From the NCBI RefSeq assembly GCF_023511815.1, contig NZ_JAIMAV010000016.1, forward strand, positions 1 through 42,698: 42,698 nucleotides of DNA, in the 5' to 3' direction. Shown in pieces: positions 29,860 through 42,613 of the stretch. Origin of the DNA: Alicyclobacillus sp. (lineage in GTDB: Bacteria > Bacillota > Bacilli > Alicyclobacillales > Alicyclobacillaceae). The position numbers and the translations under genes are program-made. Each line of letters begins with the position of its first letter. The first letter of the stretch is position 1. The notes under the pieces were generated by a model. That model saw only the letters and a program-made list of their open reading frames with translations. It was not told the DNA's origin and made no database searches.

Positions 29860-31188
29860 TCAGTGAAACTGCGCCATTTCCGTCGATTCGTCGAGCGCGG
29901 TGGTGGACGTCAGACCCCCCGAGACGACGCGGGCCACCTCGTCGAAGTACCCGGTGCCGACTTCCCGCTGGTGCTTGGTGGCCGTGTAACCGTACGGTTC
30001 GCTGGCAAACTCCGCCTCCTGCAGCTCGGCGTAAGCGGCCATGCCCCGCTCCCGGTAGCCGCGGGCGAGGGTAAACATGCTGTGGTTGAGGGCGTGGAAT
30101 CCGGCCAGGGTGACGAATTGGAACCGGTAGCCCATCTCGCCGAGCGCCTCCTGGAACCGCTCGATGGTCGGCGCATCGAGCTTGCGCTTCCAGTTGAACG
30201 AGGGTGAGCAGTTGTACGCCAGCGGTTTGCCGGGGTATTCGGCGTGGATCGCCTCGGCGAAAGCGCGCGCCTCCTCCAGGTCCGGCTCCGACGTCTCGCA
30301 CCAGATCAGATCCGCGTATGGAGCGTACGCGAGCCCGCGCGCGATGGCCATCTCCAGCCCGCCTCGGATGCGGAAGAAGCCTTCGACCGTGCGCTCGCCC
30401 GTGAGGAAGGGTCTGTCGCGATGATCCACATCGCTGGTGATGAGCTTGGCGGAGTTGGCGTCCGTGCGGGCGATGAGCACCGTCGGCACGCCGCACACGT
30501 CCGCCGCCAGGCGCGCCGCGACCAGATTGCGGATGGCGTGCGACGTCGGGATCAACACCTTGCCCCCCATGTGTCCGCACTTTTTCTCGGAGGACAGCTG
30601 GTCCTCGAGGTGCACACCGGATGCGCCCGCCTCAATCATCCACTGCGTCAGCTCGTACACGTTCAGCGGCCCGCCGAATCCGGCCTCCGCGTCGGCCACG
30701 ATGGGCGCGAACCAGTCCACATCGCCGCCTCCCTCGCACGTCTGGATCTGGTCCGCGCGCCGCAGCGCCCGGTTGATGCGCCGGACGAGCTCCGGCACGC
30801 TGTTGGACGGGTACAGGCTCTGATCCGGGTACATGCCGCCGGCGAGGTTGGCGTCGGCCGCCACCTGCCAGCCGCTGACGTAGATGGCGCGCAGGCCCGC
30901 CTTGACCTGCTGCACCGCCTGGTTGCCGGTCAGCGCCCCGAGCGCGCGGACGAACGGCTCCTCCTGAATCAACCGCCACAGCTTCTCTGCACCGCGCCGG
31001 GCCAGGGTGTGTTCCACGGCGAAGGACCCGCGCAGGCGCAGGACGTCCTCGGGCGTGTACGGGCGTTCAATCCCGCGCCACCGCTCCTCCTCGCGCCACG
31101 CCTTCGCCATCTGCTCGAGCTCGGTCCCCGCCCGGCTTGGCGTGAGCGCCATCGCCCGGCGTCCGTCCGCGTTCCCCGTCTGCGTCAT
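29860..31188 (-). CDS. aceA: Isocitrate lyase
   Basis: 442 residues. It cleaves isocitrate to glyoxylate and succinate, the first glyoxylate-shunt step, needed for growth on acetyl-CoA sources. The catalytic motif KKCGHM contains C204. Other family segments are [38 protein letters not shown] and, near the C-terminus, [11 protein letters not shown]. Three nearby ATGs exist (31195, 31192 and 31186 as left ends); the last follows GGAGAGG by 9 nt and is used here. The gene is under a promoter overlapped by two perfect palindromes. Malate synthase is not adjacent. Confidence 0.96.
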
Positions 31189-31272
31189 GTCCATCATCCT
31201 CTCCACAGAATGAGGTGTTCGCACGCCTCTGCTGTCGACCCGGTGTTTCAATTGCGTGCGATGTATGTATAT

Positions 31273-31303
31273 TGTTATATAACACGATGTGTTATATAAC
31301 ACA
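31273..31303. promoter_or_regulatory. Two palindromic operators upstream of isocitrate lyase
   Basis: TGTTATATAACA at 31273-31284 and the longer perfect 16-bp palindrome TGTGTTATATAACACA at 31288-31303, with centres 17 bp apart. A third, near-identical copy TGTTGTATAACA lies at 31356-31367 over the start of the divergent transcript. These are strikingly AT-rich in a G+C-rich genome. The regulator is not in the window or is not identifiable. Confidence 0.75.
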
Positions 31304-31304
31304 A
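31276..31304 (-). promoter_or_regulatory. Promoter of isocitrate lyase gene with embedded operators
   Basis: On the minus strand, -35 TTGTGT (31299-31304), a 17-nt spacer and -10 TATATA (31276-31281). The -10 lies inside the palindrome at 31273-31284 and the -35 overlaps the palindrome at 31288-31303, so a dimeric repressor would mask both. Confidence 0.6.
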
Positions 31305-31327
31305 GAGAAAAATTTCGATTTGTTGTG

Positions 31328-31367
31328 TTGACGCAACGGCGATTGGACAGTACATTGTTGTATAACA
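31328..31367 (+). promoter_or_regulatory. Promoter and operator of the zinc-ribbon gene
   Basis: -35 TTGACG (31328-31333), a 17-nt spacer and -10 TACATT (31351-31356), immediately followed by the operator copy TGTTGTATAACA (31356-31367) at the expected transcription start. Confidence 0.6.
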
Positions 31368-31418
31368 CACCGCAGGAAGAATCTGAAAACGGTGAATCCG
31401 GATGGGGAGAGGATGCAT

Positions 31419-31649
31419 ATGACCATGAAGGGGATGCGGGTGGACGGGATGACGTGCGGGATGGAAGAGTGGACGAACGGACCCACCGGCTTGTGGGCGT
31501 TTTCATGCGGCGTCTGCGGGGCCGAGATCCACGCCCAGCGGCCGGGGGCGCTGTACACGTGCGACCACTGCCACGAGACGGAGGACATGGAAGAGCCGCC
31601 CGCCGGGGTCCGAGGGGATTTCGCCAAGCTTCCGAATCCGCTACCATAG
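31419..31649 (+). CDS. Small zinc-ribbon-like protein
   Basis: About 76 residues. [12 protein letters not shown] and YTCDHCHE give two CxxC pairs 16 residues apart, a treble-clef or rubredoxin-like zinc-ribbon pattern. An earlier single Cys lies in GMTCGMEEW. No other domain is visible. GGGGAGAGG is followed by ATGs at 31413, 31419 and 31425; 31419 has the best spacing. It is divergent from isocitrate lyase under the same operator sequence and lies 39 bp upstream of the SDR/acyl-CoA synthetase pair. A role in regulation or in a protein complex for acid catabolism is possible but unproven. Confidence 0.55.
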
Positions 31650-35147: not shown

Positions 35148-36503
35148 TCACACCACGGGAATAAGCAGTAATGCCGCTCCGAAGACGACGATCCCGGCGA
35201 TGAGCGCCATCACGCAGTACCCCATCACATCGCGGATGGACAGGCGGGCGATGGCGAGCAGCGGGAGCACCCAGAACGGCTGGACCATGTTCGCGACCTG
35301 TTCGCCGAAGGCGACGGACATGGAGACCTTGCCCAGGTAGGCCGCCGAGTGGGTGAATTGCGTCGCGGCCTGGATGGCGATCGGGCCTTGCACCGTCCAG
35401 TGCCCCCCGCCAGACGGGACGAACAGCGTAATCACCATCGATGCCACGAAGTTCATGAACGGCAGGGTGGCCTGGTTCGAACCGTGGACCATCGCGGTGG
35501 CCAGTTGCGTCGCGAGTGAGGGGTGGTGACCCGGTGAAAATGTCATGAGGGCCATGAGGCCTCCATACAAAGGATACTGCAGGATGAGCGGTCCAGAGGC
35601 GCGGGCGGCGTGGTTGAATGCCCGAATGAAGCGGATCGGCGTCCAATGTAAGAGCATACCGATCACGGTGAACAACATGATCACCGAACTCAGGTTGATC
35701 GTGCCGTGCAGGACGAACAGGAATTCGTACAGCCCGACGACAGCGAACAAAACGTTGATAACCCACGCGTTTTCCAGCCGGGTGGCGAACGTCTTGCGGG
35801 TTGGGACAGCATCTGGCTCGGGGTCCTCGAGTGCAACAGGGTCCAATTCCGTCGTCTCAGAGGGCGAGATGAAGCGCAACAGGATCGGGATCACGATGAG
35901 GATGGCGAGCACCGGCACCCAGTTGTACGGTTGGAAGATGGTCTGGGACAAGGGCACCGTTTGGTGCGTGACGCTGTAGATGATGTTCACCACGGGATCC
36001 TTTTGGGTGTTAACGAGCGCGATGGAGCTCGAAAAACCTGAGGCCCAAGTGATGAACCCCATATACGCGGCGGCGACCAGAAATCCGAAGTGTACGTTTT
36101 GCAGACGCTTCGCGACTTGCTTCGCCAAGAGCGTCCCGATGACAAGGCCCAATCCCCAATTCAGGATGGACGCAATGGCCCCGATCAGATAGACGAGGAT
36201 GGCCGCCTGTACTTGTGTCTTTGGTTTTTCAGCCAACCAGGTCAAGAACCGGCGGATCAACGGAGCTTCGGCGAGGGTGTAGCCGGTGACAAGGATAAGG
36301 ATCATCTGCAGCGAGAAGGTGAAAATGCCGCCGCCCCATACCCCCGTGAACCACGTGCTGACGAGACTGTTCCAGGTAGTACCTTCTACAAAAATGAAAT
36401 CCAGAATGATGACCAGTCCGGTCAAAACCGCTACGAACAAGAATGGATCCGGAACGAACCGCTGCGTGTAGCGCACGAACACACTCGTGAGCGCTCTGAC
36501 CAT
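35148..36503 (-). CDS. atoE: Short-chain fatty acid transporter, AtoE family
   Basis: 451 residues, about 11-12 membrane segments. The opening RYTQRFVPDPFLFVAVLTGLV, the WGLGLVIGTLLAKQVAKR segment, LQYPLYGGLMALM, VPSGGGHWTVQGPI and FWVLPLLAIARLSIRDVMGYC are characteristic of AtoE proteins. The family takes up acetoacetate and short-chain fatty acids. The ATG at 36501-36503 has GGGAGGG 7 nt upstream. A leader of about 220 nt with a terminator/antiterminator-like structure precedes it. It is divergent from the CoA-transferase operon, which would use the imported acid. Confidence 0.92.
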   Translation of the reverse strand: MVRALTSVFVRYTQRFVPDPFLFVAVLTGLVIILDFIFVEGTTWNSLVSTWFTGVWGGGIFTFSLQMILILVTGYTLAEAPLIRRFLTWLAEKPKTQVQAAILVYLIGAIASILNWGLGLVIGTLLAKQVAKRLQNVHFGFLVAAAYMGFITWASGFSSSIALVNTQKDPVVNIIYSVTHQTVPLSQTIFQPYNWVPVLAILIVIPILLRFISPSETTELDPVALEDPEPDAVPTRKTFATRLENAWVINVLFAVVGLYEFLFVLHGTINLSSVIMLFTVIGMLLHWTPIRFIRAFNHAARASGPLILQYPLYGGLMALMTFSPGHHPSLATQLATAMVHGSNQATLPFMNFVASMVITLFVPSGGGHWTVQGPIAIQAATQFTHSAAYLGKVSMSVAFGEQVANMVQPFWVLPLLAIARLSIRDVMGYCVMALIAGIVVFGAALLLIPVV

Positions 36504-36550
36504 GGTGTACCCTCCCTGTAAAAATTTTTTCCTGTTCGTGGTGTTCTGAA

Positions 36551-36657
36551 GACAACAAAAACCCAAGCCATCCCTGCACCTAAACAGGAGTCCACACAAA
36601 CTTTGACGGGCTCCCGTTTCAGATGACAGATTGCTTGGGTTGCGCTGCTTTCCCAGC
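36551..36657 (-). promoter_or_regulatory. Terminator/antiterminator-like switch in the atoE leader
   Basis: On the minus strand, AACCCAAGC (36641-36633) pairs with GCTTGGGTT (36568-36560), followed by TTTGTTGTC, so the 3' arm runs straight into a U-tract. The 64 nt enclosed contain ACGG-GAGC-CCGT (36617-36606) and CAGG/CCTG (36588-36573) hairpins. The 5' arm can instead pair with GCTGGG (36657-36652) as GCTGGG with CCC-A-AGC, one bulged A. The two pairings exclude each other. The same design appears in the divergent atoD leader. Confidence 0.55.
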
Positions 36658-36734
36658 CGCGTTCTGAGCGCGCCTGGCACAGCGTAAGGACAATCCGTCC
36701 CGGTGTTGCAGTTGTCTCACCACGTTGCCATTGA

Positions 36735-36764
36735 TGTTATCTGAAATGTGGCCAGTATTGCAAG
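36735..36764 (-). promoter_or_regulatory. Promoter of atoE
   Basis: Minus strand -35 TTGCAA (36759-36764), an 18-nt spacer and -10 TAACAT (36735-36740). It implies an atoE leader of about 220 nt. Confidence 0.5.
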
Positions 36765-36826
36765 CCCTTTCAATCGAACAACGTTTTTACGCATAATAGG
36801 GACGGAATAGATTCTAAAAATTCTGG

Positions 36827-36855
36827 TTGCGAAGTGTCTGTGAAACCGCTATACT
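36827..36855 (+). promoter_or_regulatory. Promoter of the CoA-transferase operon
   Basis: -35 TTGCGA (36827-36832), a 17-nt spacer and -10 TATACT (36850-36855). It implies a leader of about 155 nt before the first start codon. Confidence 0.65.
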
Positions 36856-36901
36856 GAGACCGAATACGAAAAACCGTTTCTTCGTTTCACGACAGTCAGA
36901 T

Positions 36902-36987
36902 AACTGGCGTGAGCAAGCGGGGAAAGCCAAGTTTTCGTTCATTCGGCACAGGGAGTGTGGTGCAGAGAGCGGGGACTTGGCTTTTTT
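36902..36987 (+). promoter_or_regulatory. Terminator/antiterminator-like switch in the atoD leader
   Basis: AAAGCCAAGT (36923-36932) pairs with ACTTGGCTTT (36975-36984) and the 3' arm continues as a T-run to 36987. Inside, CGTTC (36936-36940) pairs with GAGCG (36967-36971), and GCAC (36946-36949) with GTGC (36960-36963). This makes a long hairpin that should terminate before the ribosome binding site (36997-37005). Upstream ACTGGC (36903-36908) can pair with the terminator 5' arm as ACTGGC with GCC-A-AGT, one bulged A, giving an alternative antiterminator hairpin. Confidence 0.6.
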
Positions 36988-37018
36988 GTGTCTTTCAAGG
37001 AGGTGCTCGGGAACCGCG

Positions 37019-37681
37019 ATGAAAGAGAAGGTGGTGTCGAAACCCGAGGCCATTGCGCACATCCGCGATGGCATGTCCATCATGGTCGGCGGATTCGGGC
37101 TGGTGGGAGCGCCCCTGGAGCTCATCGATGAGCTGTTCCGCCAGGGACAGCGGGATCTGACAGTCATCAGCAACAATGTCGGGGAGCCAGGCAAGGGTTT
37201 GAGCCGCCTGCTGGAGGCGGGGCGGATCCGAAAGGCCATCGGATCCTACTTCACCAGCAACCCGGTGGTCGGAGAGCACGCGCTCGCAGGAAAACTCGAG
37301 GTCGAGCTGATGCCGCAGGGGACGTTCACCGAGGCCATCCGGGCGGGCGGCGCGGGCATCGGGGGCTTTTACACCCGAGCGTCGGCGGGGACCCAGCTCG
37401 GCGTAGGAAAGGAGACGAAGGTGATTGGCGGGCAGACCTACGTGCTCGAATACGCCCTGACGGCGGATGTCGCCCTCATCCGAGCGCACAAGGCGGACCG
37501 GTTGGGCAATTTGGTCTACCGCAAGACCGCGCGCAATTTCAATCCGGTGATGGCAACCGCGGCGAAGCTGGTGATCGCAGAGGTGGACGAGATCGTTGAG
37601 GTGGGCGAGATGGATCCGGAGGTCATCGTGACCCCTCACTTGTACGTGGATTTCATCGTGCAGCGGGGAGGTGTCGCGTGA
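37019..37681 (+). CDS. atoD: 3-oxoacid CoA-transferase subunit A
   Basis: 220 residues, the alpha subunit of a heteromeric class I CoA-transferase (ScoA/AtoD). Family features are [55 protein letters not shown] and [10 protein letters not shown]. With AtoA it moves CoA from a donor such as succinyl- or acetyl-CoA to acetoacetate or another keto acid. The ATG at 37019 is 13 nt from AAGGAGGTG, a longer than ideal spacing, and no alternative in-frame start fits. It is the first gene of a seven-gene operon behind a conditional-terminator-like leader. Confidence 0.94.
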
Positions 37682-38316
37682 TGGACATCAAACACCGCAT
37701 CGCCGCGCGAGCGGCCCAGGAGCTTCGGGACGGCGACGTGGTCAATCTCGGGATCGGGATCCCGACGCTGGTCGCGGACCACCTGCCACCTGGCGTGGAC
37801 GTGTATCTGCACACCGAGAACGGCCTGCTCGGCGTCGGGCCGGCACCGGAGGAGTGGGCGGTCGATCCAGACCTGGTCAACGCCAGCAAACGGCCGGTCA
37901 CCCAGACCCCGGGGTGCAGCTATTTCGCGAGTGACCAGTCCTTCGCCATGATCCGCGGCGGCCACGTCGACGTGGCCATCCTCGGGGCGCTGCAGGTGGA
38001 CGCCCAGGGCCGGGTGGCGAATTGGTCGGTGCCCGGAGAGACGGTGCTCGGCGTAGGCGGCGCGATGGACCTGTTGGTGGGGGCGCGCCGCGTGATTGTG
38101 ACGATGAGTCACATCACCCGTGACGGCCAGCCGAAGATTGTGCAGAACTGCTCGCTGCCACTGACCGCTGACCGACCCGTGGATCTGGTCATCACAGACC
38201 TGGCTGTGTTCCGGGTGATGGAGACCGGGCTGGTGCTGACGGAGCTGATGCCGGGCGCCACGCTGGAGCAGGTCCGGCGGCGGACGGCGGCCCAGTTCGA
38301 AGTGCAGCTGGCCTGA
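37681..38316 (+). CDS. atoA: 3-oxoacid CoA-transferase subunit B
   Basis: 211 residues, the beta subunit. The catalytic glutamate is E46 in [12 protein letters not shown], which forms the glutamyl-CoA thioester intermediate. [19 protein letters not shown] and [15 protein letters not shown] are typical. The ATG at 37681 overlaps the last base of the atoD stop (TGATG), and a GTG 3 nt earlier is also possible; GGGGAGGTG precedes both. It works as a complex with subunit A. Confidence 0.95.
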
Positions 38317-38415
38317 CGCGCGAGTCGCAACCGGGAGTTCGTCGCCAGCGCGGTGTGCGTGCGTGTGCGAAGGGATCGCAGGTTGACATTTAGATGGCGA
38401 AAGGAGAGGTCTGAG

Positions 38416-39108
38416 ATGGAGATCATCGATCTGACGCTGCAACTGCAGGATGGGCTGAAAACATTCGCATCGCATCCGAAATTCACGTTGCTCGACCAGG
38501 TGACCTACGAGTTCTCCGCACCCCGCTACCAGCCGCCGTGCGAAGGATTCGCGTCAAAGCTGCTCATCGCCTCCGATCACGGTGGGACCCACGTGGACGC
38601 CCCGTCGCACTTCATCAAGGGCGGCAAGGACATCCACGAGGTGCCGCTTCAGCAACTCATCGGTCCGGCGGTGTGCATCGATGTGTCGGAGAAGGCAAGG
38701 GATGCCGTCATCGACAGCCGGATGCTGGCCAGCCGATGCCGGGAGCAAAGTGTCGACATTCGGCCTGGGGACATTGTCCTGCTGCGGGCGTTCCCGGGAC
38801 GCTGGGGGGAGCCGGGATTTTACGAGTGGCAGGGCATCAACGACGACGGGGCGGCGTGGCTGCAGGAGAAGGGCATCCGGGTGCTCGGCATGGATCTTCC
38901 GATGGTGGACGAGATCGGCAACCCGACACGGCCGGTGCACATGCGGATGCTCGGGGCTGAGATCCTGCTGATTGAGAATCTGGTGAACCTCGACCAGGTG
39001 GCGGGTCGGCGGTTCTTGTTCATCGGCCTGCCGCTCAACGTCAAGGGGGCGACGGCCTCGCCCATCCGCGCCATCGCGATCCCGGGCAAGGAGGATGCCC
39101 TGTCGTGA
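38416..39108 (+). CDS. Cyclase-family metal-dependent hydrolase (kynurenine formamidase-like)
   Basis: 230 residues, cyclase family. The metal-binding signature HGGTHVDAPSHF is at 55-66, followed by IRPGDIVLLR and LGMDLPMVDE as in formamidase and ring-opening hydrolases. Known relatives hydrolyse N-formylkynurenine, isatin or cyclic carbonyl compounds. Here it sits between CoA-transferase and two alcohol dehydrogenases, so opening of a cyclic diketone or lactone-type ring to a keto acid is a reasonable inference. The ATG at 38416 follows GGAGAGG. Its stop overlaps the next start (GTGA). Confidence 0.85.
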   Translation: MEIIDLTLQLQDGLKTFASHPKFTLLDQVTYEFSAPRYQPPCEGFASKLLIASDHGGTHVDAPSHFIKGGKDIHEVPLQQLIGPAVCIDVSEKARDAVIDSRMLASRCREQSVDIRPGDIVLLRAFPGRWGEPGFYEWQGINDDGAAWLQEKGIRVLGMDLPMVDEIGNPTRPVHMRMLGAEILLIENLVNLDQVAGRRFLFIGLPLNVKGATASPIRAIAIPGKEDALS

Positions 39109-39881
39109 ACGAGCTCATGGTCGGGCGACTGTTTGACTGGACGGACAAAAACGTGATCATCACCGGCGCCGGAGGGAGCATCGGCTCCACCTTGGCGCAC
39201 GCCTTCGCCACCTACCAGGCGAATGTCGTACTGGTGGACAAGAATGCGGAGTCGTTGACGAACTTGCACCGGATGATTGAGGAGATGGGCCGGACGTGCC
39301 TGACCTTCGCCGTGGACGTGACGGACGTCGAAGCGATTCACGGGATGGTCCATGAGGTGCAGGAACGGCTGGGATCCATTGATGTGTTGATCAACCACGC
39401 GGGCATGAACATCCGCAAGCAGGCGCTTGATTTGGAGTTGGCGGAGTGGGACCGGGTGCTGTCCGTCAATCTGCGCGGCATGTTCGCCGTGGCGCAGGCG
39501 GTCGGCCGGGTGATGGTGGCGCAGCGGGCCGGCAAAATTGTCAACACCGCATCAGTGTCGGCGGTGCGGGGGCACAAGCACCTCGTGGCGTACGCGGCGA
39601 GCAAAGGCGGCGTGCAGCAGATGACCAAGGTCTTGGCTCACGAGTGGGCCCCGTATGGCGTCAACGTCAATGCGGTGGGCCCGGGGTACATCTACACCCA
39701 CCAAACGGAGGACCTTTTGGCGGATCCGGCGGCCCGCCAGTCCATCGCGGCGAAGATCCCGATGGGCCGCATCGGGGAGCCCGCGGATCTGGTCGGCGCC
39801 TACCTGTTCCTGGCATCCCCAGCCGCGAACTACATCACGGGCCAGACGCTGTTCGTCGACGGGGGCCGGACGGTGGATTAG
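39105..39881 (+). CDS. Short-chain dehydrogenase/reductase
   Basis: 258 residues, classical SDR. The cofactor loop TGAGGSIG is at 20-27, then a modified NHAG (97-100, usual NNAG), catalytic S150 (NTASVSA), Y163 and K167 (YAASK) and the C-terminal FVDGGRTVD. D45 after beta-2 (VVLVDKN) favours NAD(H). The GTG start at 39105 overlaps the cyclase stop, with GGAGGAT upstream. It probably oxidises an alcohol on the way to the keto substrate of the cyclase or CoA-transferase. It is not a close duplicate of the SDR at 31689, although both share NIRK near residue 100. Confidence 0.9.
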   Translation: MNELMVGRLFDWTDKNVIITGAGGSIGSTLAHAFATYQANVVLVDKNAESLTNLHRMIEEMGRTCLTFAVDVTDVEAIHGMVHEVQERLGSIDVLINHAGMNIRKQALDLELAEWDRVLSVNLRGMFAVAQAVGRVMVAQRAGKIVNTASVSAVRGHKHLVAYAASKGGVQQMTKVLAHEWAPYGVNVNAVGPGYIYTHQTEDLLADPAARQSIAAKIPMGRIGEPADLVGAYLFLASPAANYITGQTLFVDGGRTVD

Positions 39882-39905
39882 TGCGAAATGGGGGAGAGAC
39901 GAGGC

Positions 39906-40967
39906 ATGAAGGCGCTCTGCAAACAGACATGGCAACCGGGGATGGCGTTGGTAGACGTGCCCGTGCCGGAGCCGGCGGCTGGGGCGGTGCGGTTGCGGGT
40001 GGTCGGATCCGCCATCTGCGGCAGCGATCTGCACATCTACGAGAGTGCGCCGGGATACGAATGGCTGTCCCTGCCGGTGACGCCAGGGCATGAGGTCGCC
40101 GGGGTGGTGGATGCCGTGGGACCTGGGGTCAATCCCGCCTGGATTGGCCGCCGGGCGGTGGTCAACCCGTACATCCCGTGTGGCGACTGCCGCCAGTGCC
40201 GAGCGGGCCGCCCCAACCTGTGTGACGGAGGACGTGCGACCCTGGAGAAGGTGCCGTCCCAGGCGTTGCAGATTGGGTTCCGGCGGCCGGGCGGCATGGC
40301 GGAGTATGTGACGGCACCGGTGGAGAACCTCCTGCCGCTCGCCGAATCCATCCCGGACGATGTGGCGGCGATGCTCGAGTCGTTCGCGGTCAGCGCCCAT
40401 GCCACGGAGCGCGTGCCGCTCCGGGAGGACGATGTGGCCCTCGTCATCGGCCCGGGGCCGATTGGCCTCGGCGTGGTGGCGGCCCTCAAGGCGCGCGGCG
40501 TGCATCGCATCCTGGTCTCCGGGCTGGCGCAGGACGCAGGCCGGATGCGGATCGCGAAGGCGCTCGGGGCGTCGCGGGTGTTCGACGCGGGGGAAGCGGG
40601 ATATGCCGACGTGATGGAAGAGGAGACCGGCGGGGCTGGGGTGGACGTGGTGTTCGACTGCAGCGGCCACCCAAAGGCGCTGGCGGACGCGGTGTTCTCC
40701 GTGCGGCGCGGGGGCGCGGTGGTTTTGGTCGGCATCTACGGCCGACCTGCCGAGTTGCCGGCCAACGCGGTGGTAAGAGGAGAGGTCAGCGTCGTCGGCA
40801 CCTACGGGACCACGCCGGAGGCGTTCCGGTGGGCGGTGGAACAGGTGGAGCAGGGCATCGTGGACTTGCGGCCGATGATCACCCACGTCGTACAATTGGA
40901 GCAAGCGGATGCGGGCTTTCACCACGCCCTGAGCAAGGAGGGGTGCAAGGTGGTGCTGAAGCCCTGA
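39906..40967 (+). CDS. Zinc-dependent alcohol dehydrogenase
   Basis: 353 residues, medium-chain family. The catalytic zinc ligands are C38 (AICGSDLH) and H62-E63 (PGHEVAG). Structural zinc cysteines are C92, C95, C98 and C106. The Rossmann loop is VIGPGPIGLGVVAALKARG. It is similar in layout to the dehydrogenase at 25610 but divergent in sequence. The ATG at 39906 has GGAGAGACGAGG upstream. It is the fifth gene of the catabolic operon and would oxidise a secondary alcohol in the same pathway as the SDR. Confidence 0.9.
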   Translation: MKALCKQTWQPGMALVDVPVPEPAAGAVRLRVVGSAICGSDLHIYESAPGYEWLSLPVTPGHEVAGVVDAVGPGVNPAWIGRRAVVNPYIPCGDCRQCRAGRPNLCDGGRATLEKVPSQALQIGFRRPGGMAEYVTAPVENLLPLAESIPDDVAAMLESFAVSAHATERVPLREDDVALVIGPGPIGLGVVAALKARGVHRILVSGLAQDAGRMRIAKALGASRVFDAGEAGYADVMEEETGGAGVDVVFDCSGHPKALADAVFSVRRGGAVVLVGIYGRPAELPANAVVRGEVSVVGTYGTTPEAFRWAVEQVEQGIVDLRPMITHVVQLEQADAGFHHALSKEGCKVVLKP

Positions 40968-40973
40968 GGGGGG

Positions 40974-41315
40974 ATGGCCGTGGACACGATTCTGGTGACG
41001 GGCTATGCGCCCGCGCCGAAGGGCAGCTCCATGTACGAGGCGTATAAGACGGCCGGTGTGGTCCTCGAGATCAACCCGGAGACGAACATCCTGGTGCGGG
41101 CGGAGTTCACGTTTGTGACCGACTTGGCGAAGGACTACGTATCGAGGCTGGTGAACGGGTACGACCTGTCCAAGGGCATTGAGCCGCTGGTGGAGCGGAT
41201 TCAGATGCACTACTTCACGCCGTCCACGGAGGCCGTGATCATGGCGCTGCGGGTGGCGTATCAGCGGTACCAGCAGGCCGCTCTGCCCAAGCTGGCGCAG
41301 CGGCGGGGCCGGTGA
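40974..41315 (+). CDS. DUF3870-like protein
   Basis: 113 residues. The pattern [32 protein letters not shown], then [19 protein letters not shown] and [14 protein letters not shown] matches my recollection of the small DUF3870 family, which has no known activity and tends to occur near CoA and ketone metabolism genes. The ATG at 40974 sits directly on the purine-rich GAGGGGGG. The GTG at 40980 is better spaced and is a likely real start. It lies 6 nt after the dehydrogenase, so it belongs to the operon and is probably a small accessory or enzyme subunit of the pathway. Confidence 0.75.
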
Positions 41316-41413
41316 GTGGCCGGGACCGGGCCGCTGATTGCATCAGGATGTGGTGGACGTCAAGTGGTGATGCGATGGGCGGTCCGATTGGCCGCCGGAA
41401 AGGGGATCGGCGA

Positions 41414-42613
<1,200 letters not shown>

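Follow-up and report, generated by a model that had tools for sequence, protein, structure and literature searches.

The RAT targets of the BglG-family proteins LicT and SacY are about 30 nt long, and small riboswitches with a transcriptional expression platform combine a short cis-acting RNA with an intrinsic terminator in a metabolic operon. According to PMC7430163, LicT reads two bulges in its target, and T-box riboswitches oppose an antiterminator to a terminator in Firmicutes leaders; PMC8934654 describes the targets of ANTAR proteins (EutV/NasR) as hexaloop hairpins whose positions 1 and 4 are conserved, the first hairpin remaining in place and a second structure overlapping with the terminator. 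As a kind of regulator the transcription attenuator is well known, and it is as an RNA family that the element described here appears to be new.

We find this element in both leaders of a divergent acid-catabolism locus of Alicyclobacillus sp., within a stretch of 42,698 nucleotides of contig NZ_JAIMAV010000016.1 that we refer to as the window. Like a RAT, it is an antiterminator hairpin competing with a terminator, here with two asymmetric loops flanking one helix; unlike a RAT, it spans about 75 nt, serves acid genes rather than PTS sugar genes, and occurs in six genomes of which three give no match to the CAT_RBD domain (PF03123). The T-box shares the contest between antiterminator and terminator, but the present element is not attached to an amino-acid gene, matches no T-box covariance model and has no room upstream for a stem I with a specifier loop, the antiterminator beginning some 4–30 nt after the inferred start sites. 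With ANTAR targets it has in common the persisting first hairpin and the second structure overlapping the terminator, but there is no conserved hexaloop: the apical loops are 4–8 nt long and vary in sequence, and only that of the window's atoDA leader has 6 nt. The resemblance to small riboswitches lies in the short cis RNA, the intrinsic terminator and the metabolic operon, against which stand the scarcity of invariant unpaired bases and the lack of any matching Rfam class. The first-pass annotation of this DNA had likewise recognised no known riboswitch class, and the 4227 families of Rfam 15 gave no match in the whole window at gathering scores, nor in 36500–37020 at E values up to 5.

In the open-licence literature, searched at the level of titles and the opening lines of abstracts, no description of the element was found and no RNA sensor for acetoacetate was evident. 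Passages of PMC8632094, PMC11109978 and PMC6429828 mention a CoA-transferase in connection with the odc1 motif, and an antiterminator that has a leader ORF and relates to branched-chain amino acids; the present element resembles neither.

The divergent leaders and their terminators

The locus is formed by atoE (35148–36503, minus strand), a short-chain fatty acid transporter (SCFA_trans) whose start codon was picked by eye inside a longer open frame, and by the divergent pair atoD/atoA (37019–38316, plus strand), the two CoA-transferase subunits (CoA_trans; atoD 37019–37681, atoA 37678–38316). On the plus strand atoDA is followed by genes for a cyclase, an SDR protein, a Zn-dehydrogenase, a DUF3870 protein and a thiolase (38413–42613), which by their spacing probably form an operon, and atoE is followed by a carboxymuconolactone decarboxylase-like gene. 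The DUF3870 protein (40974–41315, plus) sits within the atoDA gene cluster. An isocitrate lyase family gene nearby (29863–31647, minus) suggests growth on C2 units, and the same genome (G000) holds a second, partial atoE-like gene near a contig end (C128:72-734; L132), with 59% identity over query residues 2–220.

The entire stretch between the divergent genes, 36504–37018, was analysed. A likely atoDA promoter, TTGCGA-17-TATACT (36827–36855, plus), is listed by a promoter scan, and its -10 hexamer is kept in A. contaminans. The likely atoE promoter, TTGCAA-16-GATAAC (36736–36763, minus), was read by eye and is not listed by the scan; similar hexamers are visible by eye in related loci (L004/L117 and L116). 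The start sites of the leaders were likewise placed by eye from the promoter-like hexamers, that of the atoE leader near 36730. Repeats resembling TGTYATCTGA occur at the atoE promoter (36735, plus), in the atoE leader (36619, minus) and, in a shorter form, in the atoDA leader near 36896 (plus) as TCAGATAAC. Other atoE copies (L130, L131) carry CTGTCATCTG just after a promoter-like sequence. These repeats are possibly a DNA operator.

It had been claimed from the letters alone that each leader contains a terminator stem running into a U-tract, and long predicted hairpins of this kind are indeed found at 36556–36641 (minus, atoE) and 36923–36988 (plus, atoDA). Both leaders fold more stably than their dinucleotide shuffles (z of -3.82 for the minus and -5.07 for the plus leader), none of 200 shuffles being equally stable in either case. 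A simple terminator scan that allows loops of 3–8 nt lists neither hairpin. In a nine-pair core with hand-picked arms, all pairs are standard in each of seven leaders, with compensating pair types at positions 3, 8 and 9; the compensating differences noticed earlier between the window's own two stems are borne out as C-G/G-C and C-G/U-A at positions 3 and 9. The atoE terminator and the antiterminator's outer helix are predicted to exclude one another.

The conserved antiterminator

The first-pass annotation had proposed as antiterminator an upstream segment, GCUGGG in one leader and ACUGGC in the other, which pairs with the terminator 5' arm leaving one bulged A. Such pairing does exist in the window's two leaders, but over the stretch tested the other five of the seven offer neither a one-bulge 6-bp nor a full 7-bp partner for the terminator arm; the pairing is not kept in these related leaders. 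If all bases are taken as equally frequent, our own arithmetic predicts roughly one 6-bp match of this kind per leader by chance alone, and both segments fall for the most part within the 3' strand of the conserved fold's apical hairpin, a covarying helix. That this pairing constitutes the switch is scarcely credible. The earlier interpretation holds in that both divergent leaders carry terminator/antiterminator switches of one RNA family; the specific pairing is replaced by another, strongly covarying antiterminator.

This conserved antiterminator is a rod of about 75 nt, composed of an outer helix, an asymmetric loop, a 9-bp helix P1, a second asymmetric loop and an apical helix. The first loop holds the 5' arm of the terminator (NYCAAR), and the second consists of GRRNAANC opposite GYNYC. 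In the atoE leader the rod lies at 36625–36699 on the minus strand (model match 36622–36702; sub-coordinates counted by hand on the covarying fold), with the 9-bp outer helix at 36691–36699/36625–36633, the 3' loop CCCAAG at 36634–36639, P1 at 36679–36687/36640–36648 and the apical hairpin at 36653–36677. The corresponding rod of the atoDA leader occupies 36866–36938 on the plus strand (model match 36862–36943), with the outer helix ACGAAAA/UUUUCGU, P1, the apical hairpin and the 3' loop GCCAAG at 36926–36931. Read by eye from the alignment, the internal-loop motif is GGGAAAGC in the atoE leader (36647–36654, minus) and GAGCAAGC in the atoDA leader (36911–36918, plus). The string GGGAAAGC had earlier been placed between the arms in both leaders; it is present in both, but at different structural places, since in the plus leader it belongs to the 3' strand of P1 and the terminator arm.

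The rod was drawn by hand from the sequences of A. contaminans (G015), a second relative (G024) and the window before any alignment existed. When five leaders (the atoE leaders of three genomes and the atoD leaders of two) were aligned with MAFFT without structure, RNAalifold returned the rod unguided, with double changes in 15 of 29 pairs. The written structure is paired in 90.4% of 135 cells in these leaders, against a shuffled mean of 73.7% and 40–45% when slid along the alignment, and 14 of its 27 pairs show double changes, in 27 cells (shuffled means 7.8 and 10.3). Over seven distinct rows the pairing is 88.9% of 189 cells, with double changes affecting 18 of the 27 pairs and 43 cells (shuffled means 10.4 and 14.5), in an alignment of eight rows (seven distinct, two of these nearly identical) that was fitted to a covariance model and is hence biased towards the rod. 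Single-sequence folds of the copies from a distant genus (G260, G420 and G418) give the same rod.

Column for column, the elements of atoE and atoD can be aligned with each other, save that the outer helix is shifted by one base in the window's atoD element; they thus look like copies of one element, which may have arisen by duplication. Few unpaired bases are invariant. The constancy of the UU/AA at the foot of P1 and of the loop YCAA can be ascribed to their double duty in antiterminator and terminator. GRRNAANC opposite GYNYC, a short motif read by eye between P1 and the apical helix, is present in all seven distinct rows and is not explained by pairing.

A different source of conservation would be a DNA operator, the conserved TGTCATCTGA of the atoE leader being a protein-binding site and the RNA pairing incidental. 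Within the window TGTYATCTGA is confined to 36619 (minus) and 36735 (plus), and CTGTCATCTG is also found upstream of other atoE genes in the closest relatives (G001 and G002), as an operator would lead one to expect; the atoDA leader, however, keeps the fold without this sequence at that position, and UCUGUC/GACGGA is changed to UCUAUC/GAUAGA in G260 with the pairing retained. We regard this reading, with the RNA pairing incidental, as very unlikely.

Two mutually exclusive folds

Two-state folding was carried out on seven leaders, the eighth (G420) being omitted as its element is identical to that of G260. In a nascent RNA ending 10 nt past the antiterminator, the outer helix forms with a pair probability of 0.70–1.0 in all seven, while the full leaders, again all seven, favour the terminator by 9.9, 11.2, 4.6, 15.0, 11.0, 10.0 and 10.6 kcal/mol. 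The apical hairpin is retained in every terminator fold; P1 is partly retained in three (the atoE leaders of the window and G024 and the atoD leader of A. contaminans) and replaced in four, so the switch is mainly one between outer helix and terminator. Two conserved predicted folds that exclude each other and share one strand, one of them an intrinsic terminator, are what a transcription attenuator consists of.

Such an attenuator might be unregulated or dependent on growth rate, with the competing folds merely fixing the level of read-through. The terminator is thermodynamically favoured in each leader and no factor was found, as this reading would have it; but the loop motif is not needed for pairing, and both folds are kept over AtoD identities of 55–76%, which suggests a binding partner. 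A fixed attenuator is therefore distinctly unlikely in our estimation.

In our reading of the predicted folds, both leaders probably carry one cis-acting RNA family that works by regulated transcription antitermination and is switched by a trans-acting factor, most likely as an inducible antitermination element of a new family. Soon after leaving the promoter, the nascent RNA would fold into the rod, whose outer helix would take up the 5' arm of the following terminator. In the uninduced state the terminator would form, and the atoE and atoDA messages would end in the leader. A trans-acting factor, most likely a hypothetical RNA-binding protein and less likely a small metabolite, would hold the outer helix together; such a protein would recognise the two asymmetric loops around P1, much as LicT does with two bulges. 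The factor would act in the presence of the acid substrate or of its CoA ester, turning on uptake and CoA transfer together. The earlier proposal that a related RNA element controls atoE and atoDA jointly is upheld as to the common family, and joint control is plausible.

Distribution of the element

Eight sites in six genomes, with seven distinct sequences, were accepted: three before atoE and five before atoD. When 61 genomes were searched at the DNA level, the only further one with both leaders was that of A. contaminans (G015; 69% and 71% identity), where the gene order around atoE and atoDA is the same as in the window. An AtoE search of the 61 genomes added G024, in which the atoE leader is kept and the divergent gene is, by eye, a thiolase. 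In this genome (L116, within the 450 bases preceding atoE, minus strand) the leader of the divergent thiolase gene has, by eye, what resembles the 3' half of a terminator of the atoDA type (CTTGGCTTTTTGTG), the 5' arm being absent; it is possibly a relic of rearrangement.

A covariance model of the five sites in these three Alicyclobacillaceae genomes (R1) returned from 61 relatives the training sites plus noise. Among 398 genomes of the class its only new strong match was in G260, of another family (40.8 bits, E 3.8e-6 per genome). This copy lies directly upstream of an atoD-atoA pair, with its own terminator; the AtoD is 55% identical to the window's, and genes named from their translations, by eye, as TAXI/TRAP-type transporters follow. 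The custom model suggested at the outset thus does recover a new copy, upstream of a distant atoDA operon. Three further genomes of the G260 genus yielded the element at atoD in G418 and G420 and no match in G419; the G418 match (3.8e-4) was accepted on DNA nearly that of G260 and its position before atoD. In G260 and G418 (L146 and L154), the terminator part contains a GTG with a weak Shine-Dalgarno sequence, from which an open frame continues in phase into atoD.

The second model (R2; eight rows, seven distinct) found no further credible site in 397 genomes of the order of G260, 398 of the phylum, 59 of the window's order and 12 chosen ones, draws that overlap and that, above 40 genomes, were filtered strictly enough to miss weak matches. 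No further member emerged from 46 sources with R1 or from 79 other atoD loci with R2 (79 of 80, A. contaminans L038 being left out as a known carrier), and only the three known carriers turned up when 41 genomes of the family were searched by pattern for an element of the atoE type. Matches rejected with R1 lay inside a flavoprotein-like gene (G406, E 0.018) or across the start of a permease-like gene, by eye (G404, 0.354), had many broken pairs (G048, 0.185, or 0.125 with R2), were dismissed from the alignment (G008, 3.7) or were judged chance (G443 and G339, 0.144 and 0.156); two R2 matches (G669 and G964) fell inside long open frames, and opposite-strand matches in the window (36622–36700, plus) and in L004 (3480–3537, plus, E 1.1) were discarded. 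The R1 match in G453 (E 0.001), upstream of a FAD-dependent dehydrogenase-like frame (by eye), was rejected as well, having a weak fold and no terminator and not being reported by R2 at E ≤ 0.1; in view of such cases, R1 matches near E 0.001 are unreliable by themselves.

The closest relatives of the window genome, G001 and G002, belong to the same genus (the window genome being placed with G002) and have AtoD proteins 94% and 92% identical to its own, with a different upstream region and no element. It is also absent from G010, G011, G019 and G022 (AtoD 66–78% identical). These absences, together with those in G419 and at the 79 atoD loci, indicate that the element is dispensable for the pathway.

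Candidate triggers

No conserved leader ORF with a Shine-Dalgarno sequence lies over the antiterminator in the seven leaders, whose 5' limits were set approximately; start codons preceded by such a sequence are confined to the terminator part and the gene start, and vary from leader to leader. A search of 12 genomes for the PRD RNA-binding domain CAT_RBD (PF03123, E ≤ 0.001) gave no match in the carriers G260, G418 and G420, and found the domain in the carriers G000, G015 and G024 and in the non-carrier G002; on this evidence a PRD protein would not be the common partner, unless the search missed it. No RNA-binding regulator turned up among 30 scanned proteins, encoded in the window beyond roughly its first 16 kb and on the downstream side of the A. 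contaminans locus. In A. contaminans, genes for a histidine kinase and for a regulator of the LuxR type lie some 15 kb downstream of the element.

Could the RNA sense its inducer directly? If the element were a metabolite-binding riboswitch, the ligand of the antiterminator's internal loops would be acetoacetate, a short-chain acid related to it or a CoA ester. All eight accepted sites stand at transport or CoA-transferase genes, and no regulator gene was seen, partly by eye, to accompany the element at the loci inspected, both of which would suit direct sensing; against it speak the few invariant unpaired bases, the simple rod without a junction and, in our own reading, the short space upstream of the rod, which would hardly accommodate a separate aptamer. 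We consider a riboswitch possible but doubtful. Its more specific form, an undescribed class whose antiterminator rod would itself serve as aptamer for a short-chain (keto) acid or its CoA ester, duplicated on divergent transcripts to serve uptake and activation, seems rather unlikely.

We favour an antiterminator protein, as yet hypothetical, as the trigger, because a helix between two asymmetric loops resembles the way LicT recognises its target (PMC7430163); a direct metabolite switch would be the second choice.

Conclusions

The divergent ato leaders of Alicyclobacillus bring forward a rare RNA family, apparently duplicated in one intergenic region and common to two distant families of one class, in both of which it accompanies the same pathway. 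With covariation in both states, the two-state model makes the search for its trigger, be it a protein or a metabolite in short-chain acid metabolism, directly testable.
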